NCBI GenBank assembly: GCA_021286765.1
Contig: JAJTBS010000002.1
Location: forward strand, 248,001 to 312,000
Direction: 5' to 3'
Source of the DNA: Holophagaceae bacterium
Lineage (GTDB): Bacteria; Acidobacteriota; Holophagae; Holophagales; Holophagaceae
Length of the DNA: 64,000 bases
Below, piece after piece: positions 3,489-17,259 of the stretch. The position numbers were made by a program, and so were the translations under genes. Below the pieces are notes generated by a model, which ran no database searches, was not told the DNA's origin, and saw nothing but the letters and a program-made list of their open reading frames with translations. Each line of letters opens with the position of its first letter. The stretch's first letter is position 1.

Positions 3489-3959
3489 GGAACCAACCTT
3501 TCAGAACTTTGCAGGGAGTCGCCTTGCCCCCACTGCGGGCCCCAGGGTCGTACCAGACCGAAGGGTGATTCATTTCTACCATGACCCTTGGATGCCGCGC
3601 CAACGGTCAAAGGTTCCAGAATCGGGTTTTATTTCGCGGTTTCTGATTCGAAATTCTAAATAAAATATTTTATTTTAACAATTACGCAACAAGCTAACGC
3701 TTGGCTCGCATGAGGGCTCCTCGTACAAAAGTCAAACCCTTCTTCGCAATCCTGGACAAAGGCTGCCAAGCCATGCTGCTGATCGTGTTCTGCGGGGAGG
3801 GGTGGGAAACGCACAGCGGTTTCCAAGGAACTGTGGGCAGCCTGTGGATCCGAAGGATCAAGTCAATGGCCTGTTGCCGCTAGGCAATCCGCAGACTGTC
3901 CATGGATCCGTCGGCTCTCCGCAGGGTTTAGATATGGCCTAAGGTAGTCCCTGGTACGG
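3489..3959. other. Gap between rng and the XRE gene with a strongly AT-rich tract
   Basis: I see no convincing gene here. A short tract around 3640-3690 consists almost entirely of A and T, unlike the GC-rich surroundings, and a 60-codon frame at 3701-3883 has no ribosome site and no recognisable sequence. The base composition falls sharply here and stays lower until about 9070, so this is the probable left boundary of an acquired region. The rng promoter should lie in 3489-3650, but I could not assign -35/-10 boxes with confidence. No tRNA or attachment-site repeat was recognised. Confidence 0.4.
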
Positions 3960-4274
3960 TCACCTCGGTGCCGGAGGATTAGTCCCCCCATCACCGGAAT
4001 TATTGGAGTCTTGAGGGTCAGTAGGGTGGGGAAGGGCAGCTAGGCGCTCAAACTGAAGAAGGAATTCGGGGAAGGATTGCCCGAGTCCCAGGACCCAGCG
4101 GCGGAGTTCGATTACATCGAGCCTTCGCTCACCGCGTTCCACCTTTGATATCAAGCTTTGTTTGGTACCGAGCCTTCCTGCGAGCTGCTCCTGGGTAATG
4201 CATGAGGATTCCCTTACTTCTCGAAGAAGGCCAAGCAGGACCCCGTATTCCGAACTGAATAGCGACTTTTCCAT
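3960..4274 (-). CDS. XRE-family helix-turn-helix transcriptional regulator
   Basis: The 104-residue protein (start ATG at 4274, chosen because it opens the domain) contains one Cro/C1-type helix-turn-helix at about residues 13-60. Its recognition region reads TQEQLAGRLGTKQSLISKVERGERR, broken only by the usual turn. A frame extending upstream to 4358 would run through the operator and is unlikely. The tail is Pro/Asn/Ser rich and has no second domain. It is divergent from a Cys-rich miniprotein gene, and the gap between them holds a perfect palindrome (4311-4331) overlapping a possible promoter. An autoregulatory repressor of both directions is the natural inference. Confidence 0.8.
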   Translation of the reverse strand: MEKSLFSSEYGVLLGLLREVRESSCITQEQLAGRLGTKQSLISKVERGERRLDVIELRRWVLGLGQSFPEFLLQFERLAALPHPTDPQDSNNSGDGGTNPPAPR

Positions 4275-4310
4275 TGACCCTGCCCAGGGCCAATCTGTAT
4301 TCTGTTTTAG

Positions 4311-4331
4311 AATAGTCCAAATTGGACTATT
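4311..4331. promoter_or_regulatory. Perfect palindromic operator between divergent genes
   Basis: The half-site AATAGTCCAA (4311-4320) is followed by a single A and then its exact reverse complement (4322-4331). It lies 36 bases upstream of the XRE start and 37 bases upstream of the miniprotein start. Each strand carries TTGGAC within it, a plausible -35 element. In the minus direction a TACAGA-like -10 follows at 16-17 bp. Dimeric XRE repressors bind this kind of site, so it is the likely operator for the neighbouring regulator. Confidence 0.7.
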
Positions 4332-4368
4332 TGATTGAACACCTGCTCCGCCTATCAAGGAGGAAACA

Positions 4369-4581
4369 ATGTTCGACCTGACGCCCCGCTGGTGTCCGTG
4401 TGGTTGCGAGACGAGCTACACCATCGAATGCGATGCTCTCGTCGCTCCAGCCGATGGCGCTTGGCTTCACTACACCTGCCCCAAATCCCAGGACCGCCTG
4501 TCCTTCCAGAGCTGTGGTTGCTGGGGCTCATCCCGTAATGACAATAGCCACCAGGTGGTTATCGCCAGCCTGAACTACTGA
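4369..4581 (+). CDS. Small cysteine-rich protein, family not recognised
   Basis: The 70-residue protein has an excellent ribosome site (AAGGAGG, five bases before the ATG), much stronger than most genes nearby, which supports translation. It has seven cysteines: C9, C11 and C13 in a WCPCGC cluster, then C21, C37, and C49 and C51 in SCGCW. There is no signal peptide or membrane segment. Clustered cysteines suggest a metal-binding (zinc ribbon-like) fold in the cytoplasm, which is inference. It lies directly downstream of the palindromic operator and is probably the gene controlled by the divergent XRE regulator. Confidence 0.6.
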   Translation: MFDLTPRWCPCGCETSYTIECDALVAPADGAWLHYTCPKSQDRLSFQSCGCWGSSRNDNSHQVVIASLNY

Positions 4582-4627
4582 ATATCAGAGGTTCGGGATC
4601 TGGCTGGAAGCATTCACGCGGGCCTGG

Positions 4628-5443
4628 ATGCTATGTGGGGATGCTCCACTGCTCGTCCCATGGTCCATGTTGGACAAGGTGCCAATGGACACGGATTGGA
4701 ATGACCGGATGACTCGTGTGGTGTTCCCCGCCTTGCTAAGGGGGGTACATGTCTATACGGGAATCGGTGAGATTATTCCGGGCCTAGGAATCCCTCAGAC
4801 CGACAGCGGCAGCCCAGGGGCAAAGGAGGCCGTCAGCAGGAAGCCGATTGGGTTGCCTGTCTGGCAGGTCTACCTCGGAGTGAAGGAGACCCAGCCGCCC
4901 ATCCGCTTTCTTCAGTTCATCCACAAAGTGGAAACCCTTCGGGGCCCGGGGGCACTTGTCTACCCAACCAAATTGCAGCGGGACAGGGATCGCGGGGTGG
5001 CGTTAATGGTGCCGCTCGGCGAGGGACTAGCGACGCCGCCTTACGAGATGTCGCTGGCCCGGGAAGTCCAGGCTGTATTCCTGAACAAAGTCGTTCGAGT
5101 AATTGCTCTCGGAAGGGTCCGGCCCTTCACCACGAAAAGCCCATGGTCATTGAGTGAACATCTCCTGATGGAAGTCTTTTCTGAAGCCGGGCAATTGATT
5201 TGGACCAATCCGGTCATCGGAATGGGTCTCGAGGAATGCTTGGAAAGGCTAGGAAACAATGAGGAGTTCACGCTGGCTAGGCCCAAGCATGGACCCGCAG
5301 TTGAATCACGACTCAATGCTTGTCACACCAGCGAGGCATGCGCCCGGATCGTGCTTGAAGCGGCCTTTCAAGCAGAATTGATGGGCGATGCAAACTTGGG
5401 GTCGACGCTTCGGGCAATGGGGGAGCGCATGCACCGGCCCTAA
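4628..5443 (+). CDS. Hypothetical protein of the accessory region
   Basis: I do not recognise this 271-residue protein. It looks soluble, of mixed alpha/beta character, with no signal peptide or membrane span and no catalytic motif that I can name. The C-terminal third (about residues 180-265) is helical. The start is uncertain. ATG 4628 has a poor ribosome site, whereas an ATG at 4685 is preceded by AAGGTG and would give 252 residues. Base composition is lower in GC than the core genes. It follows the miniprotein by 46 bases on the same strand, so both may belong to the XRE-controlled unit. It converges with panD. Confidence 0.55.
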   Translation: MLCGDAPLLVPWSMLDKVPMDTDWNDRMTRVVFPALLRGVHVYTGIGEIIPGLGIPQTDSGSPGAKEAVSRKPIGLPVWQVYLGVKETQPPIRFLQFIHKVETLRGPGALVYPTKLQRDRDRGVALMVPLGEGLATPPYEMSLAREVQAVFLNKVVRVIALGRVRPFTTKSPWSLSEHLLMEVFSEAGQLIWTNPVIGMGLEECLERLGNNEEFTLARPKHGPAVESRLNACHTSEACARIVLEAAFQAELMGDANLGSTLRAMGERMHRP

Positions 5444-5913: not shown

Positions 5914-6229
5914 GCATCCTCCGGTCCAGGCTCCGTCCGGAGTCCCGGCCAACGGACAAGGATGGCCCCACAAGGGTGCCAGGTCCAGAGTCGATGTTTT
6001 ACAACTTCTACCGATTTGGTTGGAATCCAATGGTGGATGGGGAATTGGGCAATATTTACATTTTTTTGAGGTTAAGAATCCCATGCAGTTAATTGCGCAA
6101 CCAGCGCGCAAAAAATGTCCAAAAAATTAACTTAGACAAATCCAAAATGCGCAAAATAATGTGGGCAAAAATAGCTGGTCTAAAACTTCGTTATTGTGGT
6201 CTGGAGCTTCACCTTCGAAGGGCCAGGCC
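5914..6229. other. AT-rich intergenic tract with GCGCAAAA repeats
   Basis: This 316-base gap between divergent panD and a three-gene operon is AT-rich from about 6000 on. Short related elements stand out: the palindrome TTGCGCAA at 6093-6100, GCGCAAAAAATGT at 6106-6118 and GCGCAAAATAATGT at 6149-6162. The last two are near-identical direct repeats with start-to-start spacing of 43 bases. Such elements could be binding sites of a replication or transfer initiator, or of a repressor. No gene is supported. The panD promoter and the operon promoter should both be in here, but I could not place them. Confidence 0.4.
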
Positions 6230-6478
6230 ATGACTCAGAAAAAAGAACCAAATCGGCATTTTAATTCAATAATAGATTGGATTAGGTCGCTGTTTTCAGG
6301 TAATCACAAGTCGAATCCGGTCATGATCGATACCGGTGGATTAACCGCGATTCTAAGAGAATCGCGCCAAGTTCCTGTGAAACGCCTGAAGCCTGGTTTT
6401 AAGAAGATCCCGGGCCAGGTCTGCGATACGGTCGGTAGCGGCCAGGAGGCATTTCACAGTTCTGTGTGGGAGGCGTGA
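6230..6478 (+). CDS. Small hypothetical protein, first gene of accessory operon
   Basis: The 82-residue frame starts at ATG 6230 with only a weak AAGGG upstream. A longer version from 6161 would run into the repeat tract. The product is basic (many Lys/Arg) with a hydrophobic patch around IIDWIRSLF, no signal peptide and no family that I recognise. Its stop is four bases before the next ATG, and a GGGAGG ribosome site for that gene lies inside its end, so it is cotranscribed. Function is unknown. A small DNA-binding accessory protein would fit the context but is not shown by sequence. Confidence 0.5.
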   Translation: MTQKKEPNRHFNSIIDWIRSLFSGNHKSNPVMIDTGGLTAILRESRQVPVKRLKPGFKKIPGQVCDTVGSGQEAFHSSVWEA

Positions 6479-6482
6479 AGCC

Positions 6483-8336
6483 ATGAATCCTCCTGCCTTC
6501 GTAAATACCGTAGACACCTTCAAATCTCCCGCCAGCTTGGTTCAGTACGTCAATGAGCACCTTCGAGCTCCCACGGAAGCTGGAGCTTTCAAGGACTTGC
6601 CCGGTTACCTGGATCAGTGGGGGCGAGTGATCCCGATCCTGGCCAACCGGGAGTTATGGGAGGAGATTGGTCTGCCGGTTGGCTGCACAATTCCGCCCGA
6701 CGAGGTGCTGGTTAGCCTATGTCTTGGTAGGGATGCGTCTGGTCGGCTACTCACCAGAATGCAGCTACGTAGAATGCCTCGGGAATTCCTGATCCCGCTC
6801 CCCTGCGAGTTGTCCGAAGCCCTCAAGGATCATCCTTTAGTCGGCATGGCCGTGGCCGTCGCCGTCACCAAGACATTCCTGGGTCGAATGGAATCGATAG
6901 CTGTCCTAGACCGTAAGGGAGGAACGGAGAACTGGCGTAAGGCCACGACGCTCTCCATGTTTTTCATTCACGGGACGAACCAAGCTAGCGAAAGTCACAT
7001 CCAGAGCCACATTTTCACGTTTGGACCTGCGCGATTGGAATCTGGGCGTTGGCTGACCTATGAAAACTGGGCCTGTTTGCGGGAACTGCATGTGGATGGG
7101 GGCATCAGGGAAGACCTCGGCAAGACAATGGTCAAGGAGGCTGCCAAATTTGGCTATGAGGTGATCTTGGTTCCAGGGAAGGCCTCTCGAAACCAAACCA
7201 ATGGATGTACTGTGATTTGCCCGGACGGTCGGATCATTCATGCGGGGAGTGTGGCCCGGGTGCAGAGTGCCGGGATCCTCGCCAGCCGTGCAATCAAGGC
7301 AATGCTGGGAGTTCAGACGCTAACTTCTCGGGAACTCGATGTCGTGTTGGGGAACCCCGGGGAGCCTCTTCTGTCAATTCCTAACTGGCGCCCGAATGCT
7401 TACCAAATTTACAAACTGACCATGCTTGGAATTCTTGATTCTTCGGGGCGAATAAAAATGGACCTGATGCCCCTACTCCAACAACTGGACGATGGACTGG
7501 CAGTGGCACAAGCCAGCTTGGCTGATATGAACAGCGCGAATTGCCACAGGGCGCAGGCCATGATCCGGAATACGAGAGAACTTCTGCAATTTCGCGTGCC
7601 TGAGATCAACCCTGAACCCGGAATGGCGGCACTTGGTTGGCATAGGATGCGTGATGGGATGCTACGACTTGTCGCATCCCAGCCAGGAGGACTGAGCCAA
7701 GAGGGCTGGGCGAAGGAGACCGTGGATTGCCTCCTCTATCTCCAACGGGGGGGCTTCCTGGAGGTCTCTGGCTACAAAAACCGCTCCATTTACTCGCTTA
7801 GCTCGAAAGGGAAGAAGCAGTTGGTCGATGTGTATTGCATTGAATCGGACATCGAGAAGGCCCTCGCCTGCCTTCGAGAGCGACTGCTTGGCGACCAGGG
7901 CATTCCTGAAGTGAACCTTGGCAGATTAGAAATGGCGGGCCTAAGAGTGCATGAAAACCAGTTGGTGTTCGTAAAGTACGGTCGGGCCGTAGATGGTTCC
8001 CCCTTGCTAAAGTCCCTCGGGATTGACACCAAGACTGAAACCTTGCTCGACTACGATTGGTGGCGGCGCCTGTGGGATGAGCGCCATGCCCTTCCCAAAG
8101 CGCTTGCGGACAGTCTTATGAGACCTGACGAGATTGCAAAGCGATGGCCCTGGCTTGGTCGCCAGAAGATCGGGTTGCCAGCAAACAAACAGAATGGGGG
8201 GGCCACAAAGCCAAAAGATGAAGTTGTTATTGATACAGTACCAGAGCCCCGGAAGCCTCATAGGAGTATTGGGAATCCCCATTTCCAGGTAGAACCTCAT
8301 TTCGGACCAAGACCCGATCGTGCGCGATCAATCTAA
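6483..8336 (+). CDS. Large accessory protein with faint TrwC/MobF relaxase-like segment and winged helix
   Basis: The 617-residue protein has a clear GGGAGG ribosome site. Residues 155-260 recall the histidine region of MobF/TrwC relaxases, whose pattern is H, then D-P-x-L-H-T-H, then a GRW strand. Here H163, H172 and H176 occur in FIHGTNQASESHIQSH, followed by LESGRWLTYEN, a helical stretch, FGYEV and a VARV strand resembling the usual SxR. The HxH pair is not preserved exactly, and no early tandem Tyr is evident, so nuclease activity is doubtful. Residues 391-447 look like a winged helix (GGLSQEG, then RSIYSLSSKGKKQL). The C-terminus is basic and disordered. A plasmid or ICE-derived DNA-processing protein is my best inference. 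Confidence 0.6.
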   Translation: MNPPAFVNTVDTFKSPASLVQYVNEHLRAPTEAGAFKDLPGYLDQWGRVIPILANRELWEEIGLPVGCTIPPDEVLVSLCLGRDASGRLLTRMQLRRMPREFLIPLPCELSEALKDHPLVGMAVAVAVTKTFLGRMESIAVLDRKGGTENWRKATTLSMFFIHGTNQASESHIQSHIFTFGPARLESGRWLTYENWACLRELHVDGGIREDLGKTMVKEAAKFGYEVILVPGKASRNQTNGCTVICPDGRIIHAGSVARVQSAGILASRAIKAMLGVQTLTSRELDVVLGNPGEPLLSIPNWRPNAYQIYKLTMLGILDSSGRIKMDLMPLLQQLDDGLAVAQASLADMNSANCHRAQAMIRNTRELLQFRVPEINPEPGMAALGWHRMRDGMLRLVASQPGGLSQEGWAKETVDCLLYLQRGGFLEVSGYKNRSIYSLSSKGKKQLVDVYCIESDIEKALACLRERLLGDQGIPEVNLGRLEMAGLRVHENQLVFVKYGRAVDGSPLLKSLGIDTKTETLLDYDWWRRLWDERHALPKALADSLMRPDEIAKRWPWLGRQKIGLPANKQNGGATKPKDEVVIDTVPEPRKPHRSIGNPHFQVEPHFGPRPDRARSI

Positions 8337-9069
8337 TCGGCTCCTTCCCTTTTGGGCTAAGGGTGTTTCCATTCCCTACAGAATGGAGAAACTTCCGTTC
8401 AGATTCACGGATATCGCGCAGAGGATTTGGACTGGATGGCAGATAGATAAAGAAGACATAGGGTATTGGCGATTACTCGATCCGTTCCCAGAAGGGCCGC
8501 GCCGCACACTTGAGCGAATGATTTCGGAAGACAGGCGATCCCATACATTTTGGGAATATCCAGATCTGAAGCCTGAGCTCATCTCCCGGCTAAATGTAGA
8601 GTTTGAGACAGATCAATTGATAATCCACCAGCTAAATTCCACCCTCAAGGAAGGCCTGCGTAATTTCGCGGAATCCTCTTTGGTGAAATTATTCAATACT
8701 CACATTTACGCGGAAGAATTCATCCCTTTCCAGGATTCATGGGAGGCCTCGTTATGTAATACAGATCGGGTGAAGGGGATCCTGCCCTCGATTCGGCCCC
8801 TGTCTGAAATGAACTACTGGGTGGCCGAGTTTTCAGTTGGATCTTCCTCGAAACTCGTGCTGCTTGAGGTACTTTCAGATGCGGATTTAGGAAAGCCCTG
8901 CCCGATTGCTATCTGGACTCATGGACAACGAACAGTCGAATTCCTGGAGAGACCAGCGCTCCGGATCGACCCCAACTGGCCACTGCTTTCACGCGTAATT
9001 GCCTCTGCCCGATGGTATTTTCGTTTCCATAGGGCTTATCCAGAGCGGGATATTTATATGAATACCTAA
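8320..9069 (+). CDS. Hypothetical protein, third gene of accessory operon
   Basis: The 249-residue frame starts at GTG 8320 and overlaps the preceding gene by 17 bases. An alternative ATG at 8383 would remove 21 residues, and neither has a good ribosome site. The protein is rich in Trp, Tyr and Phe and looks soluble, with no signal peptide. The N-terminal half is helical and charged, and the second half has strands (YWVAEFSVGSSSKLVLLEVL). I do not recognise a family. GC content is clearly below that of the core genes, as for the rest of this operon, which suggests common acquisition. Confidence 0.55.
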   Translation: MRDQSNRLLPFWAKGVSIPYRMEKLPFRFTDIAQRIWTGWQIDKEDIGYWRLLDPFPEGPRRTLERMISEDRRSHTFWEYPDLKPELISRLNVEFETDQLIIHQLNSTLKEGLRNFAESSLVKLFNTHIYAEEFIPFQDSWEASLCNTDRVKGILPSIRPLSEMNYWVAEFSVGSSSKLVLLEVLSDADLGKPCPIAIWTHGQRTVEFLERPALRIDPNWPLLSRVIASARWYFRFHRAYPERDIYMNT

Positions 9070-9124
9070 GTGCCAACCCGGAGCCAACTTGCTATTTCTT
9101 GCTGAAGATTTATGAGGAACTGCT

Positions 9125-9151
9125 GGGCCAAGCGAATCCTTACTTTGGCCC
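9125..9151 (+). terminator. Possible hairpin terminator after the accessory operon
   Basis: GGGCCAA (9125-9131) pairs with TTGGCCC (9145-9151) across a 13-base loop, about 55 bases after the last operon gene. There is no T-run behind it, so it is only a weak candidate terminator in the gap between convergent genes. Confidence 0.25.
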
Positions 9152-9168
9152 GGCGTAGAATTGGCCTG

Positions 9169-9648
9169 TTAGTTAAATAGTACCACGTGCAGATCCAGCC
9201 CGATCCGTGGCGGGGCGATGGGCGGGGGGGCCATGGGCAGGCGGAAGGCGCCCTCCAGGTCCAGCCGGGCCCTGGGGTCCCGGACTCGGCGAAGCACCCA
9301 GCGGCCATCCAGAAACACATACATGCGGGAGGGATCGCCGGGTACCAGGGCCACGTAGCGCCGTGTTTCGCCCGCGCGCCAGTACCCATTCATCCAAGGC
9401 GGGGCGACATGCCGACGGTCACGGTCGTGATCCCGGTCCTCATCGTAGCGGTGGGCATGGTGATCGCCCTTCCGTTCCTTCCAGTACTCCCGTTCGCGGC
9501 GGTCGTGTTCCTTCCAATAGCGCCGGTCCTCTTTCTGCTCCTCCTTCCACTCCCGGCGCCGCTCCTTGTCGTCGTGGCGGTCGGGAAGGGCCAGGGCGGG
9601 CAGGGCCGAGGCGGCGAGGAGGCAGGCGGTCAGCAGGGGGCGGAACAT
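9169..9648 (-). CDS. Secreted highly charged protein, tandem paralogue A
   Basis: The 159-residue protein has a signal peptide (MFRPLLTACLLAASALPALA, cleavage near residue 20). A long Asp/Glu/Arg/Lys/His-rich segment follows (about 22-85, with repeated WKE, RRE and DRD units), then a short folded domain. The last 25 residues (LPMAPPPI then PRIGLDLHVVLFN) are almost the same as the end of the gene just upstream, so the two arose by duplication while their middle parts diverged. His and Asp abundance may bind metal ions at the cell surface, which is inference. No known family is recognised with certainty. An RcnB-like protein was considered but the match is poor. Confidence 0.65.
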   Translation of the reverse strand: MFRPLLTACLLAASALPALALPDRHDDKERRREWKEEQKEDRRYWKEHDRREREYWKERKGDHHAHRYDEDRDHDRDRRHVAPPWMNGYWRAGETRRYVALVPGDPSRMYVFLDGRWVLRRVRDPRARLDLEGAFRLPMAPPPIAPPRIGLDLHVVLFN

Positions 9649-9656
9649 GATGACTC

Positions 9657-10022
9657 CTAGTTGAAGAGCACGACGTGGAGGTCCACCCCAACCCTGGGCA
9701 GGGGGATGGGCGGAGGTGCGGCGGGCAGGCGGAGAACATCCCGGATCTCGCCCTGGAGCCCCACATCGAAGCCCTTGCGCAGCTCCCAGCGGCCCTCGAT
9801 GAGGAACCAGGCCCGGTCGTGGTAGCGGGGATCCACGGCCACGTAGGGCCGCTCAGGGAGCCGACCGTATTTCTTGGCCAGGCCCGGGGGAAGCCCCCCC
9901 TTCTTGGCCAAGCCGGGAGGCGCGCCTCCCTTTTTGGCGAGCCCCGGAGGGACGCCCTTGTCGTGGCCTCGGCCTTGGGGGCCAGCCAGCAAAGACGAGA
10001 TCAGGAGCAGGGAAGGGAACAT
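9657..10022 (-). CDS. Secreted PPGLAKKGG-repeat protein, tandem paralogue B
   Basis: The 121-residue protein has a short signal peptide (MFPSLLLISSLLAG). Three PPGLAKK units follow at about residues 25-52 (separated by GG dipeptides), then a folded region (RPYVAVDPRYHDRAWFLIEGRWELRK) and the tail LPAAPPPIPLPRVGVDLHVVLFN. The tail is shared with the gene eight bases downstream on the same strand, and the RxYxxLV/DGRW core also aligns. The Pro/Lys repeats are likely extended and basic, in contrast to the acidic/basic alternating repeats of the partner. The protein is exported, probably periplasmic, with unknown function. The two genes look like one transcript. Confidence 0.65.
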   Translation of the reverse strand: MFPSLLLISSLLAGPQGRGHDKGVPPGLAKKGGAPPGLAKKGGLPPGLAKKYGRLPERPYVAVDPRYHDRAWFLIEGRWELRKGFDVGLQGEIRDVLRLPAAPPPIPLPRVGVDLHVVLFN

Positions 10023-10110: not shown

Positions 10111-10983
10111 TCAGGATGCGGATGCCGCTAGGTCTGAGGCCGGGGGCGAAAGCAGCACGTTGTCGATGAGGCGGGTGCTGCCGACATAGGCGGCCACGCA
10201 CAGGGCGGCGCTGCGATCCACCCGGCCCTGGATAGGTTCCAGGTTCTGGGTGTCCACCAGTTCCAGGTACTGGATGGAGTCCACCCCCGAAAGGGGCTTC
10301 CGGGCGATCTCGACCAGCTTGGCCCCATCCCGTTCCCCAGCCTCGAAGGCGGCCTTCGCGGAAAGGAGGCCTTCGCTCAGCCGGAGGGCCCGGCGCCGGG
10401 CGTCCTCATCGAGGTAGGTGTTGCGGCTGCTCAGGGCCAGGCCATCGGCCTCCCGGACCGTGGGGACCACCACCACATCCACGGGCAGGTTCAGGTCCCG
10501 GGCCATGCGCCGGATGACCACGGTCTGCTGGAAGTCCTTCTGGCCGAAGAAGGCCAGGTCCGGCTCCACCATGTTGAAAAGCTTGGCCACCACCGTGGCG
10601 ACACCGCGGAAATGGCCGGGTCGGAAGCGCCCGCAGAGCGGCTCGGCCAGCCGGCCGGGCTCCACGTGGGTCTGGAAGCCGGTGGGGTAGATCTCGGCGG
10701 CTTCGGGAAGGAAGAGCACAGTGGTGCCGGCTTCCAGGCAGAGGTTCTGGTCCCGCTCCAGGTCCTTGGGATAGCTGGCCAGGTCTTCGCTGGGTCCGAA
10801 CTGGGTGGGGTTCACGAAGATCGACACCACGGTGGCATCGCAGCGGGCGGCGCTCTGGCGGATCAGGGCCCCGTGGCCTTCGTGGAGGAAACCCATGGTG
10901 GGAACGAAGCCGATCCGCTTCCCTGCTTCTCTCAAGGGACGGAGCAGGGCGCGCAAATCAGCGATGGTACGGACAACTCGCAT
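10111..10983 (-). CDS. panC: Pantothenate synthetase PanC
   Basis: PanC condenses pantoate with beta-alanine using ATP, the last step of pantothenate synthesis. The roughly 290-residue protein shows the nucleotidyl-transferase signature PTMGFLHEGH, then FVNPTQFGPSEDL, the FGQKDFQQ substrate segment and LSSRN with its catalytic loop. ATG 10983 opens the family-typical MRVVRTIADL. A TTG six bases upstream has the better-placed AAGGA and could also be used. panB lies directly upstream on the same strand, so panB-panC form a unit. panD is about 4 kb away beyond the accessory operon and the two secreted paralogues. Confidence 0.95.
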   Translation of the reverse strand: MRVVRTIADLRALLRPLREAGKRIGFVPTMGFLHEGHGALIRQSAARCDATVVSIFVNPTQFGPSEDLASYPKDLERDQNLCLEAGTTVLFLPEAAEIYPTGFQTHVEPGRLAEPLCGRFRPGHFRGVATVVAKLFNMVEPDLAFFGQKDFQQTVVIRRMARDLNLPVDVVVVPTVREADGLALSSRNTYLDEDARRRALRLSEGLLSAKAAFEAGERDGAKLVEIARKPLSGVDSIQYLELVDTQNLEPIQGRVDRSAALCVAAYVGSTRLIDNVLLSPPASDLAASAS

Positions 10984-11035
10984 GGACAAAAGCGGGATCC
11001 TTCAGAAGGCACCTGCCAGCTTACCAAGGGGGGCC

Positions 11036-11899
11036 CTAGGGGCGCCACTGGGTCAAAGCCGGACGAACGGCTTCTGGAAGGGTATAGGATTCCCGCTCAT
11101 CCGGGAACCCTCCCGCCCGCACATCCTCGGCCCAGGCGGCCAAGGCGACCCGTAGGTCTTCGAATCCTTCGGCATAGCGCCGAACGAATTTGGGGGAGCT
11201 GCCGGGCAGCAGACCCAGCACATCGTGGATGACCAACACCTGGCCCGAGCAATGGGGGCCGGCTCCGATCCCGATGGTGGGAATCTCCACCGTTTCGGTG
11301 ACCTTGGCGGCCAGGTCGGCGGGGATCCCCTCCAGGACCATGCTGAAGCAGCCGGCGTCCTGAAGCCGCTGGGCATCCTCCAGCAGGCGGAGGGCCTCGC
11401 CCTTGTGCTTGCCCTGGACCTTGTAGCCACCCATGGGGTTGATGCTCTGGGGCGTGAGGCCCAGATGGCCCATGACGGGGATCTCCGCGTCGATCAGGGC
11501 ATGGATCATGGGAAGGCGCTTGGCGCCCCCCTCCAGCTTCACGGCCTGGGCCCCCCGCTGAAGGAAGCCCCCTGCATTGCGCAGGGTGTCCTCCACGCTG
11601 AGGTGGAAGCTCAGGTAGGGCATGTCCGCGATGAGCATGGCTCCCGGGCGGGTGCGGGCCACGGCCTCCAGGTGATGGTTCATCATGGCCATGCTGACGG
11701 GCAGGGTGTTCTCGAAGCCCAGGCAGACGTTCCCCACGCTGTCTCCCACCAGGATGATTTCCACCCCGGCAGCATCGGCGATGCGGGCTGTGACGGCATC
11801 GTAGGCGGTGGTCATCACCAGCTTGCGTCCCGCGCGATGCCAGCTGTGCAGCTGGGACAGGGTGATGCGGGCACGCGAATCGGCGGGCAGGTGGCTCAT
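11036..11899 (-). CDS. panB: 3-methyl-2-oxobutanoate hydroxymethyltransferase PanB
   Basis: PanB makes ketopantoate from alpha-ketoisovalerate with methylene-tetrahydrofolate. The 287-residue protein has the signature metal/substrate motifs: MTTAYDAVTARIADAAG, GDSVGNVCLGFENT, ADMPYLSFH, the KLEGG lysine/glutamate segment, GHLGLTPQS, and IGIGAGPHCSGQVLV with the catalytic Glu region before it (MVLEGIP). The start has GGAGA a few bases upstream. It precedes panC by 46-52 bases on the same strand, so co-expression is expected. The protein is a cytoplasmic, decameric class II enzyme by family knowledge. Confidence 0.95.
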   Translation of the reverse strand: MSHLPADSRARITLSQLHSWHRAGRKLVMTTAYDAVTARIADAAGVEIILVGDSVGNVCLGFENTLPVSMAMMNHHLEAVARTRPGAMLIADMPYLSFHLSVEDTLRNAGGFLQRGAQAVKLEGGAKRLPMIHALIDAEIPVMGHLGLTPQSINPMGGYKVQGKHKGEALRLLEDAQRLQDAGCFSMVLEGIPADLAAKVTETVEIPTIGIGAGPHCSGQVLVIHDVLGLLPGSSPKFVRRYAEGFEDLRVALAAWAEDVRAGGFPDERESYTLPEAVRPALTQWRP

Positions 11900-11960
11900 G
11901 GGGTCTCCGCTGGAGGGTCGAAGCCTGGACCCTCCATCAGACCACCGAACCCGGCGGGCG

Positions 11961-14900
11961 TCACCCGGGATCGGGGAAGGCCGGCAGGTTCATCTGGGTG
12001 GGGGTCCAGTCCACCAGCGGGTCGGCCCGCTCGGGCTGGATGAACCGGAGGCCCACGGCCTCCACGGTCTGCCGGAAGCGGTGCAGGTCCTCCCGGCCCA
12101 GGAAGCTGGTCTCCTGGCCCTCGGGAAGCCGCGCCCACAGCTGCTGGAAGCTGGGGAAGGCATCCTGCATGCGGGCCCGGGCCCCCAGCTTCTCGCCCCG
12201 TTGCAACAGGAGCTGGGCGCCCTCGGCACTGGCCTCGAGGATGATCGCGGGGAACTGCAGGTCGCGGGCGGCGGCCTGGACTTCGCTCCAGGCTTCAAGA
12301 GACTCCAGGGCCACAGCCTCCGAGGCCGGCACCGTGGACAGCAGTAGGGCGTGGGCCCGGTGCCACTCCAGGTCCAGCCAGCGGGATCCCGAGCCCTCGA
12401 CGGGCCCCTTCAGGTTCTCCAGGATGGCCCAACCCTGCTCGGGGGCTTCGAGGCCCGACTGGCGGGCCTCCCGGGCCACGGCCTGGCTGTGGCGGAGCTG
12501 GGCGAGGCGCTGGCGCCAGAGGAGGCCTGTGGATTCGTAGTGATCGGCCGCGGCACGGAAAAGGCGACTCGCGTCCCGCCAGGCGCTGCGGAAGCGGGCC
12601 ACCTCACCCTGCAGGAAGAGGTGGTCCCCCTGCTCCTCGGGCGAAAGAAGGGGTGGCTGGGCGGCCAGGGCCTCGAACTGGGCATGGTCGGCGCCCAGGG
12701 AATCACCCATGGCGGCGAGGGTCCGGGCCCGCCAGATCTGGGTGAGGGAAACCAGGGCTGCGTCGCCCAGACGCTGGGCCCGCGCCAGGGAACGGTCCAG
12801 GTGGGACAGGGCGGGGCCGAGGAATTGCTGGATGCTGCGGACCATGCCGAGGGCCAGGTGCCCCCTGGCCTGGAGGGTGGTGTCGCCTTGCAATCGAGCG
12901 GTCTGCAGGGCCTCCCGCAGCAGGTGGATGCAGGCCTCGGACTGGCCCTGCGCCAGCCGGACCTGGGCGAGGGCGATCTGCACCGAGACCAGGCTGCGGA
13001 AGTCCTGGGCGTGCTCGAGCATCCGCTGGGCCGATTGCATCATGGAGCCGGCCCGCAGGAATTGGGACTGGCCTGCGAGGGCTTGACCGAGGGTGAGCAT
13101 GAGGGCGGCCTGATCCTGGGGCAGAGGCTTGAAGCCGCCCTGGGGATGCAGGCCCTCCTCCAGGGCCCGGATGCCCTTGGTGAGATGGCCCTGGAGCAGG
13201 TGGAGCTGGCCCAGGGCCAGGCGCAGGCGCGGCTGCTCGGGGTGCAGGGGGTGGTCGGTCAGCCGCTCCGAGGCGAACTGGAGGGCCTCCTGGGCCTCGC
13301 TGGGCCGTCGAAGGCGCAGGAACAGGGCGGCCCGCTTGCGGAAGAGCCGGGCTGCGGTGAGGCGGGTGTCCTCGTCGTCGGCGCCCTGGGCCAGGGCGCC
13401 GAGGGCCCGGCCCAGCGAGGCGAGGGCCTCCTCGAAGGGGGAGCGCTCCGCGGGCTCGTCGGGCAGGCGGACCCCGCCGGCCCAGGCATCGGCCAGATGC
13501 TCGTGGAGGCGGGCTTCCTCCCTGGGCGCCGGCTTGAGCTGAAGGGCCTGGGCCACGATCCGCCGGACGTCCTCAGGGGAACCGCTGGTCGCATGGTCGA
13601 GGGAACTGAGCACTGCGGCCAGCGCCGTGGCCTCGTCTGAGGCCAGCGACCGGAGCGGCACAGGGCAGTCCCAACCCTGCTCCTGGAAGGCGGCGGACAG
13701 GGCCCGGGCCAGGCGCTTGAGCTCCGGCTGGGGCGTGTGGGCCAGCACCAGCTCCCGCCAGCGCGGATCGGGGATCAGGGCAAGGCCGCGTTGGAGCTGG
13801 GCCAGCCGGGAGCCCACGGCGCCGTGCAGGGCATCTTCCAGCGCCTCGTCCTGGAGCCCAAGCAGCCGACCCAGCGCACCGGAGGGCAGGGGACGCTCGG
13901 CCAGGGACAACAGGCGCACCAGGGTGGCCGAGGCCGCTGTCAGCCGTTGGAGCCGGCCGAGGAAGATCTGGCGCATCAGGTCCTCTTCCGCCCGCAGGGT
14001 CGCCGGCTGACCCGGCACCAGGCACCACTGGTTCCGGTCCCAGGTGAGGGTCCCGGACTGGTGGGCGAGTTCCAGGAAGTTCCGGAGCAGCCCAGGGTTG
14101 CCCAGGCTCTGGGTGATCAGGTCGGAGCGGAAGGCCTCCGGCAGGTCGTGCTGGCCTAGCAGGTCCTCCATCACCAGGCCCAGGTCCTCGTCCTCCAGGC
14201 GGTTCACACCCACCAGCGCCGCCGTTTCTTCCCCGCGCAGCTGGGTGATGAGGGGCTTGAGCCCCGCGCCCTGGGCGCCCGTGGTCAGGGAGAGAAGCCA
14301 TGGCAGGGTGGAGGCGTGGACCAGTTCCCTGATGAGGTTCAGTACCCCGGGGGTGGCCCGGTCGAGGCCCGAGAGGTGGATGAGGCGGTGGTGCAGGAGG
14401 CCGGCGAAATCCAGAGCCTCCAGGGCCGCCTTGACCTCTTCCGCCTCGGGCACAGCCTCCTGACCGTTCACATGGCGCCCGCCGGTGAGGAAGGCGAAGG
14501 CCTGGACCCGCAGCGAGAGGGTCTTGGCGGCCTCGGGGCGTTCCGCGTAGAAGTCCACTTCGCTGCCGCTCAGCAACGCTTCCAGGAGGCGGCCCAGGAA
14601 CCGACCCGGGGTCTCGTCGGCGGAGGCCGCGAGATGGTGGACCCAGATGCCCTCCCCCTCGGCCACGGCAGAGGCGAAGGCGGCCAGGTGCTCCTTGCCC
14701 ACACCCTCCTCACCCTGAAGCAGGACGATGCGCTCCATGGGGATGGGGGCGCTGAAGCCCAGCATGAGCGACTTGAGGTAGGGGAGCTCCTGGCTGCGAC
14801 CCCGGAGGGGACGGGCGATGGGTTCGGAGAGGTCCCGCGGGTGGTTCCAGGGCAGATCCTCGGACAGGGCTGGAGTTGGAGCTGTCTGGGGCAGGAAGCC

Positions 14901-15365
14901 CGCCACCAATTCCAGGCCCCAGGGGGCCTCGCCGATGACCCGGGGAACCTGGGTGAGGCCGGGCCGGAAGGTGATGACCTCGGGATGGAGGAAGCGGGGG
15001 TGCGGATCCCGGCCAAGCTGGTCGCCGAGGTGCGCCAGCAGTGCCTCCCGCTGGGCCTCGCCCCAGCCGGCCCAGAGTCGCGACAGCGGCGTGCCCTGGA
15101 TGGCCTGGAGGAACCAGGCTTGCTCCCCATCGAAGCCCAGGTGGCTGATGACGGGGTCGAGGGGCGTGGCATCCAGGAATCGCGCGAGGAAGGTGTCCCG
15201 GATGTGGTCGAGATCGCGGTCCGTGGGCAGGGGCGACCAGATCTGTGCGAGGAAGCGGGTGCCATCCAGCTCCCGCCGCATGAAATGCCAGGAACAGCGC
15301 TCCCCACGGCTCAGCTCGGCGAGCCAGGTGTAGCGGTGGGTGCCGAGGAAGCGTGTCACGTCCAC
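11961..15365 (-). CDS. Large pseudokinase-like / P-loop ATPase / TPR protein
   Basis: The 1134-residue protein starts at GTG 15365, with GAGG about eight bases upstream. The open frame continues to 15656 but the extra part is not protein-like. Residues 1-150 follow the order of a Ser/Thr kinase lobe without its catalytic residues. EQAWFLQAIQGTPLSRLW matches the hinge, and a later LHPEVITFRPG takes the place of HRDLKPxN. A P-loop GEEGVGKE is at about 218-225, with a Walker B-like LIHLSGLDRA further on, as in MalT/STAND ATPases. The C-terminal half (about 560-1100) is made of TPR-like helical pairs. PknK-type regulators share this layout, so a signalling role is inferred. It is followed by panB on the same strand. 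Confidence 0.7.
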   Translation of the reverse strand: MDVTRFLGTHRYTWLAELSRGERCSWHFMRRELDGTRFLAQIWSPLPTDRDLDHIRDTFLARFLDATPLDPVISHLGFDGEQAWFLQAIQGTPLSRLWAGWGEAQREALLAHLGDQLGRDPHPRFLHPEVITFRPGLTQVPRVIGEAPWGLELVAGFLPQTAPTPALSEDLPWNHPRDLSEPIARPLRGRSQELPYLKSLMLGFSAPIPMERIVLLQGEEGVGKEHLAAFASAVAEGEGIWVHHLAASADETPGRFLGRLLEALLSGSEVDFYAERPEAAKTLSLRVQAFAFLTGGRHVNGQEAVPEAEEVKAALEALDFAGLLHHRLIHLSGLDRATPGVLNLIRELVHASTLPWLLSLTTGAQGAGLKPLITQLRGEETAALVGVNRLEDEDLGLVMEDLLGQHDLPEAFRSDLITQSLGNPGLLRNFLELAHQSGTLTWDRNQWCLVPGQPATLRAEEDLMRQIFLGRLQRLTAASATLVRLLSLAERPLPSGALGRLLGLQDEALEDALHGAVGSRLAQLQRGLALIPDPRWRELVLAHTPQPELKRLARALSAAFQEQGWDCPVPLRSLASDEATALAAVLSSLDHATSGSPEDVRRIVAQALQLKPAPREEARLHEHLADAWAGGVRLPDEPAERSPFEEALASLGRALGALAQGADDEDTRLTAARLFRKRAALFLRLRRPSEAQEALQFASERLTDHPLHPEQPRLRLALGQLHLLQGHLTKGIRALEEGLHPQGGFKPLPQDQAALMLTLGQALAGQSQFLRAGSMMQSAQRMLEHAQDFRSLVSVQIALAQVRLAQGQSEACIHLLREALQTARLQGDTTLQARGHLALGMVRSIQQFLGPALSHLDRSLARAQRLGDAALVSLTQIWRARTLAAMGDSLGADHAQFEALAAQPPLLSPEEQGDHLFLQGEVARFRSAWRDASRLFRAAADHYESTGLLWRQRLAQLRHSQAVAREARQSGLEAPEQGWAILENLKGPVEGSGSRWLDLEWHRAHALLLSTVPASEAVALESLEAWSEVQAAARDLQFPAIILEASAEGAQLLLQRGEKLGARARMQDAFPSFQQLWARLPEGQETSFLGREDLHRFRQTVEAVGLRFIQPERADPLVDWTPTQMNLPAFPDPG

Positions 15366-15498
15366 GGGTGGGCCTCGGGATTTCCGGCTGGATGGCGAGG
15401 GGGCATGGCCGAGAGTGTACCCCAGCGGCCACCGCGCGCTCCGGGAAGGCCGGGCCCTCCAGGGCGGAGCTCCGACAAGGCTGTACCGACATTTTTCC

Positions 15499-15526
15499 TC
15501 AACTCTGCGTGCTTGTTGGCCGATAG
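15499..15526 (+). promoter_or_regulatory. Possible sigma-28 (FliA-type) promoter
   Basis: TCAACTCT (15499-15506) and GCCGATAG (15519-15526), 12 bases apart, resemble the flagellar sigma-28 consensus TAAAGTTT-N11-GCCGATAA, with 5/8 and 7/8 matches. It sits 60 bases before the ATG of the repeat protein. The -10 match is good but the -35 match and spacing are only fair. An overlapping GTTGGC/GCCAAC inverted repeat is an alternative explanation. Confidence 0.35.
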
Positions 15527-15540
15527 GCAGCCAACCAACA

Positions 15541-15564
15541 GGAATGGGAACGGAGTCCCATTCC
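15541..15564 (+). promoter_or_regulatory. Hairpin in the leader of the repeat protein
   Basis: GGAATGGGA (15541-15549) and TCCCATTCC (15556-15564) form a perfect nine-base inverted repeat with a six-base loop. It ends 13 bases before the ribosome site GGAGGGG of the downstream gene. It could stabilise the message or gate translation. There is no T-run, so it is not an intrinsic terminator. Confidence 0.4.
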
Positions 15565-15585
15565 AACCCGACCCACGGAGGGGTT

Positions 15586-16359
15586 ATGTCAAATCTGAGT
15601 GTCACCACCACCAGCAGCACCACGCCCGCCCTGCAGGACCGTTGGGCCCAGCGCAAAGCCCTCTTCGATCAGCTCGGGCAGGCCCTTCAGGCCGGAGACC
15701 TCAAGGCCGCCCAGGATGCCTTTGCCGCCTTGCGTCCCAGCACAGGATCAGAGGCCCCCCAGGGGGGCTGGGGCCCCCCCCGGGGACCTTTCGCGATCCT
15801 GGCCGATGCCCTGCAGAAGGGGGATCTCGCCGCGGCTCAGGATGCCTTCGCCCAGATCACCCAGCGCCGGGAGCATTCCCACCACGACATCGAAGAAGGC
15901 GGGCATTCCGAGGCAGACTCCTTCAGGCAGATGAAGGCCCTGTTCGATCAGCTCGGGCAGGCCCTGCAGGCCGGGGACCTGGCGGGAGCCCAGGAGGCCT
16001 TTGCCAACCTTCAATCCCGAGCGCCAGGGGATGGTCCCGGCCGCCGGGAAGGTCGCGGAGGCCGTGGCCAGGGGCCCTTCGCTGCCTTGGCGACCGCCCT
16101 GCAGAATGGCGACTTGACCGCAGCCCAGGACGCCTTTGGCCAGATCCAGCAGGCCCGGGGGCATCATCACCGGCACCACGAGGAGGAAACCGAGACCGGG
16201 CCTTCCTCAACCCCTCCCCCTGCTGCCGACCCGGCCACCGCTTCGACCCCCGCTTCGACCCCAGCCTCCGGCTCGTCGACGGGCCAGAACAGAGGCGACG
16301 ATGACGATGACGGTGCTGCGGTCCGGTCTAGGCGGGCGCGGATCGATGTAACGGCCTGA
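15586..16359 (+). CDS. Four-repeat protein with ALQxGDLxAAQxAF motif
   Basis: The 257-residue protein has a strong ribosome site (GGAGGGG) at ATG 15586. It carries four copies of a 23-residue helical unit, consensus FxxLxxALQxGDLxAAQxAFxxL, at about residues 27-49, 69-91, 119-141 and 164-186. Units 1/3 (FDQLGQALQAGDL) and 2/4 (FAxLAxALQxGDL) are closest to each other, so a two-unit block was duplicated, and DNA of units 1 and 3 (15661-15720, 15941-16000) is still highly similar. Linkers are Gly/Pro or His/Glu-rich and the tail is Thr/Pro/Ala followed by a run of Asp. There is no signal peptide. Similar ALQxGDLxxAQxA repeats occur in bacterial proteins of unknown role. Confidence 0.7.
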   Translation: MSNLSVTTTSSTTPALQDRWAQRKALFDQLGQALQAGDLKAAQDAFAALRPSTGSEAPQGGWGPPRGPFAILADALQKGDLAAAQDAFAQITQRREHSHHDIEEGGHSEADSFRQMKALFDQLGQALQAGDLAGAQEAFANLQSRAPGDGPGRREGRGGRGQGPFAALATALQNGDLTAAQDAFGQIQQARGHHHRHHEEETETGPSSTPPPAADPATASTPASTPASGSSTGQNRGDDDDDGAAVRSRRARIDVTA

Positions 16360-16365
16360 GGGCCC

Positions 16366-17259
16366 CTAGCGGGCGAAGAACGGATCCAGGATGACGGCGG
16401 CGGTGAGGACCAGCGCGAAGAGGTTGATGTTCATGAAGACGCGTCGGTACAGGGCCGCATCCTGGCCGGGTTTCAGCAGGGGCAGCGATCCGGCGATGAG
16501 CCAGGCGGCGCCCAGGCCCAGCATGAATTCCGCGGGCCAGGACACCAGCACCCGGAACAGGGGCAGCAGGCCGCAGGCCGCGGCCGTGCCGCAGGTCCAG
16601 GTGAAGGTGAGGCGGGAGAGGCGGGGACGCCCGAAGACACTCACCAGGGTGGGATAGCCTGCCTCCTCGTAGCCCTCGGCGTGGAGCCCCACCAGCAGCC
16701 AGAAGTGGGGCACCTGCCAGATGAAGAAGACGAAGGCGAGGGCCAGCACCGAAGGATCGGCCACGCTGCCACCCGCCGCGGTCCAGCCAATGGCTGGTGG
16801 CAGCGCGCCGATGAGGGAACCCGGCACCACGGCGAAGGCGCTGACACGCTTCAGGGGGGTGTAGAAGCCGTTGTACCAGCCCAGGGCCAGAGCCCCGAGC
16901 AGGGCGGAGGTAAGGTTGTGGGCGAGCCACAGCACCAGGAAGCCGCAGATGGCCATCACCGTGGCAATGACCGCGGCCTGGGCCGGGGACAGGTCCCCCC
17001 TCGGGATGGGCCGGTTCGCGGTGCGGGGCATGAGGGCATCGAAGCGGTGCTCCTGCACCTCGTTCAGGGCGCTGCTGCCCATGGCCAGCAGCAGGATGCC
17101 CAGGAGCGTCGTCACCAGCCCCAGGTCCGCGCCCCGGAGGAAGGCCACATAGCCCGCCGCCGCCGTGAAGGTGGAGGCGCCCGAGATCCGGAGCTTGGTC
17201 AGCTCCAGGAAGGTGGAGATCGGGTGTGATTTCGGGGCGGGGAGTGCGGCCACGCTCAA
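16366..17259 (-). CDS. ctaB: Protoheme IX farnesyltransferase (heme O synthase)
   Basis: CtaB transfers a farnesyl group to heme B, giving heme O for the oxidase encoded just upstream. The 297-residue protein is polytopic (about nine membrane segments). It has the UbiA-family prenyl-diphosphate site in the first loop, NEVQEHRFDALMPRTANRP. The usual first Asp is Glu, while the later Asp is kept. The family segment YNGFYTPLKR also fits. It starts at TTG 17259, supported by AGGAG about seven bases upstream. As the last gene of the oxidase operon it follows subunit II by ten bases. No ctaA was seen in the window. Confidence 0.93.
   Translation of the reverse strand: MSVAALPAPKSHPISTFLELTKLRISGASTFTAAAGYVAFLRGADLGLVTTLLGILLLAMGSSALNEVQEHRFDALMPRTANRPIPRGDLSPAQAAVIATVMAICGFLVLWLAHNLTSALLGALALGWYNGFYTPLKRVSAFAVVPGSLIGALPPAIGWTAAGGSVADPSVLALAFVFFIWQVPHFWLLVGLHAEGYEEAGYPTLVSVFGRPRLSRLTFTWTCGTAAACGLLPLFRVLVSWPAEFMLGLGAAWLIAGSLPLLKPGQDAALYRRVFMNINLFALVLTAAVILDPFFAR

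Follow-up and report, generated by a model that had tools for sequence, protein, structure and literature searches.

MOBF relaxases, among them TrwC of R388 and TraI of F, pKM101 and pCU1 (PF08751), harbour a C-terminal SF1 helicase that is needed for transfer (PMC12857230). According to a 2017 review, no canonical integrative mobilizable element (IME) was known to carry a MobF relaxase (PMC5704250). In ColE1-type plasmids, a mobC gene is followed by mobA, within which mobB and mobD are internally encoded (PMC9282650). Here we analyze a three-gene operon beside panD in a Holophagaceae bacterium, within a 64,000-nucleotide stretch of DNA referred to as the window.

The family to which this operon belongs shares with MOBF relaxases the HUH fold (Z 14–18) and the H...HxH spacing together with the residues around the motif, and it has candidate motif-I tyrosines; relatives of the window copy also have a hairpin-adjacent candidate origin of transfer (oriT). 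In contrast to MOBF relaxases, the family has a winged helix instead of the C-terminal SF1 helicase, and the window copy further differs by a glutamine in HxH. Similar to integrative mobilizable elements, the relatives have an integrase, tRNA or tmRNA att repeats and a relaxase of their own, and the host genome of the window likewise has no PF02534 coupling protein. The window copy, however, has neither integrase nor att repeats, and the family differs from canonical IMEs in its MobF relaxase and in a cargo that includes DISARM, type I restriction-modification (RM) and Wadjet. The ColE1-type mobC-mobA/BD layout shares a small upstream protein followed by a relaxase, and eight relatives also share a gene inside the relaxase gene. 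However, the ColE1-type relaxase is MOBP(HEN) while ours is MobF-type, and the third gene of the window is tandem rather than nested; the likeness noted is one of arrangement. Our reading, which we judge quite probable, is that Holophagaceae host a family of integrative mobilizable elements whose mobilization module is this operon, here stranded beside panD without an integrase.

The panD operon and its MobF-like relaxase

The three open reading frames of 82, 617 and 249 codons described in the first-pass annotation exist as stated and are intact (Table 1). The third gene lies in the +1 frame and overlaps the end of the relaxase gene by 17 nt. The operon is located within a low-GC patch (~53% versus ~67%) that is missing in the closest sampled relative. 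None of the three proteins matched Pfam, NCBIfam or PADLOC, in agreement with the earlier view that the two partner proteins belong to no recognised family, and the 617-aa protein alone had no PHROG match either.

By itself, the 617-aa protein falls below the Pfam TrwC cut-off (PF08751), which eight relatives pass, and its only match in the PDB was TraI of pCU1/pKM101 at E = 0.28. The family profile matched F TraI, pCU1 TraI, pKM101 TraI and TrwC at E values of 3e-11 to 4e-10 (best 3.4e-11), and only MobF relaxases scored below E = 0.8. An AlphaFold model of the 617-aa protein (pLDDT 84.3) contains a predicted HUH domain, and all 27 Foldseek matches at E ≤ 0.001 were TrwC/TraI, with E = 2e-8 to TrwC. 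Because the profile of the relatives matches MobF relaxases, though the window protein alone does not, its identity is settled: on profile and predicted structure, this is a divergent MobF (TrwC/TraI) relaxase. The MobF-like HUH domain proposed from the letters alone is thus upheld, and the comparison with TrwC/TraI suggested at that time returned the fold of an HUH relaxase. The GRW strand and the winged helix noted earlier are also present, the latter spanning residues 380–466 in the model and placed at 391–447 by the first-pass annotation. Neither the window protein nor the longer relatives L010 and L057 matched a helicase, and the model shows a helical part and the winged helix. The statement that the protein has no helicase domain holds, as does the one on the absence of type IV secretion genes nearby.

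Within the family alignment, H163 and H176 are invariant, and both the H...HxH spacing and the neighbouring N/E residues match TraI. The first-pass annotation had assigned the metal histidines to H163, H172 and H176. The first and last of these hold, while H172 is not equivalent; the HxH column is instead occupied by Q174 (codon CAG), a position that is histidine in every other aligned member. All three metal-binding histidines are found in most relatives but not in the window copy. The Q174 substitution may impair the window relaxase. Since circovirus Reps in which glutamine replaces one HUH histidine (HUQ) can still bind metal (PMC9973303), a loss of activity in the Q174 protein, though likely, is no certainty. 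Of the motif I candidates, Y42 is nearly conserved in the family alignment and Y22 not fully.

The 249-aa third protein is kept in five relatives; its model has a pLDDT of 49 and no confident fold. At the position of the window 82-aa gene, relatives encode a small protein of 80–97 aa which looks, by sequence, like the ribbon-helix-helix (RHH) type, and its profile had no match in the PDB. The window 82-aa protein is 7–20% identical to these proteins and not recognisably related. The order of small gene, relaxase and +1-frame third gene is kept in relatives. A frameshift in the 82-aa gene was considered and rejected, as the other frames are not open.

Table 1. Coordinates of features in the window and at related loci
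Feature	Position	Strand	Basis or remark
Second insertion, separating Rng from panD, with an HTH regulator and ORFs of 70 and 271 aa	3633..5515 (also given as 3960-5443)
~150-bp non-coding repeat	3773..3924	+	71–82% identity, along most of the repeat, to its counterparts at other relaxase loci
Further copies of the ~150-bp repeat	L011 12240-12390; L054 4953-5103; L056 11261-11410
Operon-bearing insertion of ~3.2 kb, separating panD from the 159-aa gene	5970..9173		Homology to relatives with an empty site
82-aa small basic protein, first operon gene	6230..6478	+	ATG start at 6230
617-aa MobF-like relaxase, with an HUH domain followed by a helical part, a winged helix and a basic, disordered tail, and lacking a helicase	6483..8336	+
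HUH relaxase domain, residues 4–275	6492..7307	+	Against TrwC 1–249: Z 18.0, 3.3 Å over 239 residues
Y22, candidate catalytic tyrosine, corresponding to about TrwC Y18	6546..6548	+	Inferred from structural-alignment offset
Y42, second candidate tyrosine	6606-6608	+	By position
Metal site H163, Q174, H176	6969..7010	+	Aligned with F TraI H146/H157/H159
Winged helix, residues 380–466, PadR/MarR-like fold	7620..7880	+	AlphaFold model
249-aa third protein	8320..9069	+	GTG start
tRNA-Glu element, 38 kb	G000:C6:420783-458901 (L109, L107, L009)		47-bp att repeat, integrase, HipA-like gene, DISARM, relaxase
tmRNA element, ~64 kb	G000:C7:97110-160759 (L111, L112, L110, L010)		24-bp repeat, integrase, type I RM, relaxase

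Relatives on integrative elements

The family comprises fifteen loci in 12 genomes, all Holophagaceae, and 14 of the fifteen were taken into the family alignment. A tblastn search of plasmids and phages gave no match, nor did viral contigs. Pattern scans of genome contigs, whose sensitivity is limited, gave no match with a single protein and matches only in Holophagaceae with a five-member alignment; the 14-member alignment was too diverse for such a scan.

Two further family copies are present in the window genome, at C6:454 kb and C7:156 kb, and each lies in a computed element. For the first, the 3' half of tRNA-Glu is repeated as a perfect 47-bp match (C6:420,783-420,829 and 458,855-458,901); DISARM genes lie between the two repeats, and an integrase of the family found in relatives is located inside the element next to its far end. 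For the second, a perfect 24-bp copy of the tmRNA 3' end lies at C7:97.1 kb, 63.6 kb from the tmRNA, with an integrase 1 kb beyond this repeat and a type I RM system adjoining the relaxase. Elsewhere, integrases (PF00589) adjoin the operon in L012 and L054 and are more distant in L060; those near L012, L054, L055 and L060 belong to one family. No convincing att repeat of at least 15 bp was found around these four operons in the DNA examined. Wadjet, AbiEii and DrmD-like genes are located near other family relaxases. The Wadjet genes of L014 have as neighbours (10729-17000) a pair of large helicase genes and a TGT-like gene, which recall a Dpd-type DNA modification cluster.

A search for the coupling protein PF02534, the only T4CP family searched, found none in the window genome (assembly about 96% complete) and a match in 10 of 77 family genomes. 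To our knowledge, no helper conjugative element has been described for these hosts. The scarcity of coupling proteins alongside an own relaxase fits mobilizable elements which need a helper.

Upstream of the operon, GCGYARRGTGCTT occurs in six relatives with 0–1 mismatch and in a seventh with 2; as this core was spotted by eye in the same sequences, its count describes them and does not amount to a test. A hairpin directly abuts the core in six of the seven relatives. The arm sequences differ at most loci, and the stems in L054 and L055 have one or two unpaired bases. When scored without gaps, the hairpin exceeded a random-position control at four of seven loci (p<0.006). We propose the hairpin and GCGYARRGTGCTT as a candidate oriT with a putative nic site; for L012, the putative cleavage substrate would be single-stranded DNA carrying its own hairpin and GCGTAGGGTGCTTA. 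The consensus core is absent from the window, L011 and L056, where only GCGCAA-type repeats are found.

From these computed features we infer a transfer cycle for the intact relatives. The small upstream protein would bind the origin of transfer, and the relaxase would nick just 3' of the hairpin upstream of the operon and attach through its tyrosine. A helical part and winged helix would stand in for the helicase half of MobF, the basic tail would recruit the complex to a coupling protein supplied by a helper conjugative element, and the third protein would act as a relaxosome accessory. The tyrosine recombinase would excise the element and insert it at tRNA or tmRNA genes, with DISARM, restriction-modification and other defence genes among its cargo.

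An HUH fold, a winged helix and the lack of a T4SS would also fit a Rep protein, and the 617-aa protein might then initiate replication of a rolling-circle plasmid that has become integrated. We regard this as very improbable: its sequence and structure matches are MobF relaxases and not Rep families, its relatives reside within integrase-att elements, and their basic C-termini and hairpin-plus-core sites resemble transfer modules.

Nested and tandem third genes

Family members differ in where the third gene lies: it follows the relaxase gene in tandem in the window, L011, L012, L054, L055 and L058, and is nested in the +1 frame inside the relaxase ORF in L009, L010, L013, L014, L015, L057, L059 and L060. 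In each of these eight loci, codon-phase GC places the coding signal in the +1 frame from about codon 450 onward, over 240–370 codons, while the relaxase frame remains open throughout the stretch. Synonymous-codon shuffling predicted ~31 stops in the relaxase frame over the eight loci and none was seen (Fisher p = 8e-9). In 145 control windows taken from other genes, stops in the corresponding frame were 0.78 times as frequent as expected, and 6% of these windows were stop-free. With this control taken into account, eight stop-free frames in eight loci are still far from chance.

Seven of the eight nested genes start with ATG (L014 uses TTG), and nearly all are preceded by an AGGAG-like site. 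Beyond the nested gene, the relaxase frame ends after 41–85 codons in seven loci and after 396 in L057. At least three of the last four relaxase residues are K/R in 7/8 loci, compared with 9–13% K/R overall. Because the relaxase frame is free of stops and the C-termini are basic, both frames look translated. Neither HMM nor hhalign detected homology between nested and tandem third proteins, which may be analogous, as far as sequence can tell.

We lean, by a little over even chances, toward the broader view that a helicase-less, winged-helix MobF lineage drives defence-spreading elements in Acidobacteriota, with eight diverged members fully overprinting a conserved accessory gene of 240–370 codons and both frames translated.

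The panD insertion site

Gene order in relatives is panB-panC-(two small genes)-panD-Rng. The closest comparison is G205 (L061), whose panD and Rng proteins are 98% identical to those of the window genome; homology ends near 5970 and restarts at 9173, and the left edge of the operon insertion is uncertain, from 5970 to about 6003. The window panD itself looks native, because its 98% match is with the same neighbour as that of Rng. To the right, at window positions 9169-10022, lie two adjoining small genes that are related to each other and encode 159 and 121 aa; their number and length vary between species, and the 121-aa gene has PPGLAKKGG repeats.

The operon occupies the panD site in the window, L011 and L056, at the same place and in the same orientation, and the site is operon-free in 11 sampled relatives. 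The three copies form their own clade with moderate support (94/94) and are 31–36% identical to each other, against 84–98% for the flanks. At all three sites there is, in addition, DNA separating panD from Rng; among the 11 sampled operon-free sites, a single one has DNA of comparable length there. The 271-aa protein of this second insertion in the window has no significant family match. A ~150-bp non-coding repeat located in this insertion is found at seven relaxase loci (in L059, 89% identity over a 57-bp part), is absent from the empty-site loci, and is single-copy in the window's own genome. The L054 copy lies about 90 bp from a tRNA-Arg. No RNA families were detected in six loci. Simple decay of randomly placed elements does not explain three related copies at one panD site, and separate arrivals of related elements at this site are the likelier reading.

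Site-specific integration by MobF relaxases is established for TrwC. The operon might accordingly be imagined as a self-contained HUH transposon, or site-specific integrase, targeting the region upstream of panD by single-strand transfer. Three diverged copies at one site and in one orientation, with no integrase found and empty sites elsewhere, would suit this proposal, as would the capacity of relaxases such as TrwC for site-specific integration. However, apart from a chance 7-bp repeat, neither a common terminal sequence nor a target duplication was found at the ends of the window insertion, and elsewhere in the family insertion involves different sites and a tyrosine recombinase. We consider this explanation improbable.

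No integrase of the elements' family was found at the panD-site copies in the DNA examined, and the only PF00589 match on contig C6 lies at 422.8 kb, so none is in the window. Without an integrase, a consensus oriT or a histidine at position 174, mobilization of the window copy by its own means is unsupported, and this copy is probably immobile by itself, by the evidence of its sequence. Not the family but the window copy merits the word degenerate of the first-pass annotation, on account of Q174 and of a missing integrase, consensus oriT and recognisable small partner.

The window ORFs are nonetheless intact despite Q174 and the absent integrase and consensus oriT. This could indicate that the panD-site copies have been domesticated, serving the host or a resident system in regulation or defence and not in DNA transfer. 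Their separate clade, the missing integrase and the many relatives that adjoin defence systems are in line with such a role. On the other hand, the other two panD-site copies retain all three histidines, presence is patchy (three panD sites against 11 sampled empty ones), and about 30–36% identity is unlike a vertically kept host gene; domestication is thus unlikely. The related suggestion of a relaxase-derived system with a new role finds less support: relatives are found in elements with an integrase, att repeats and oriT-like hairpins, for which ordinary DNA mobilization is the simpler account and no new role is required.

Read in this way, the family represents a new form both of MobF relaxase and of mobilizable element; a literature search found, with the terms used, no paper on helicase-less MobF relaxases. 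If both frames are translated, the nested gene would represent an independent origin of the ColE1-type gene-in-relaxase layout and an unusually long overlapping gene pair. The family would also offer a test of a MobF relaxase working without a helicase of its own. Additionally, a helicase-less MobF family on tRNA islands bearing DISARM and other defence genes would point to a way in which such islands can move within a phylum that has been little studied.
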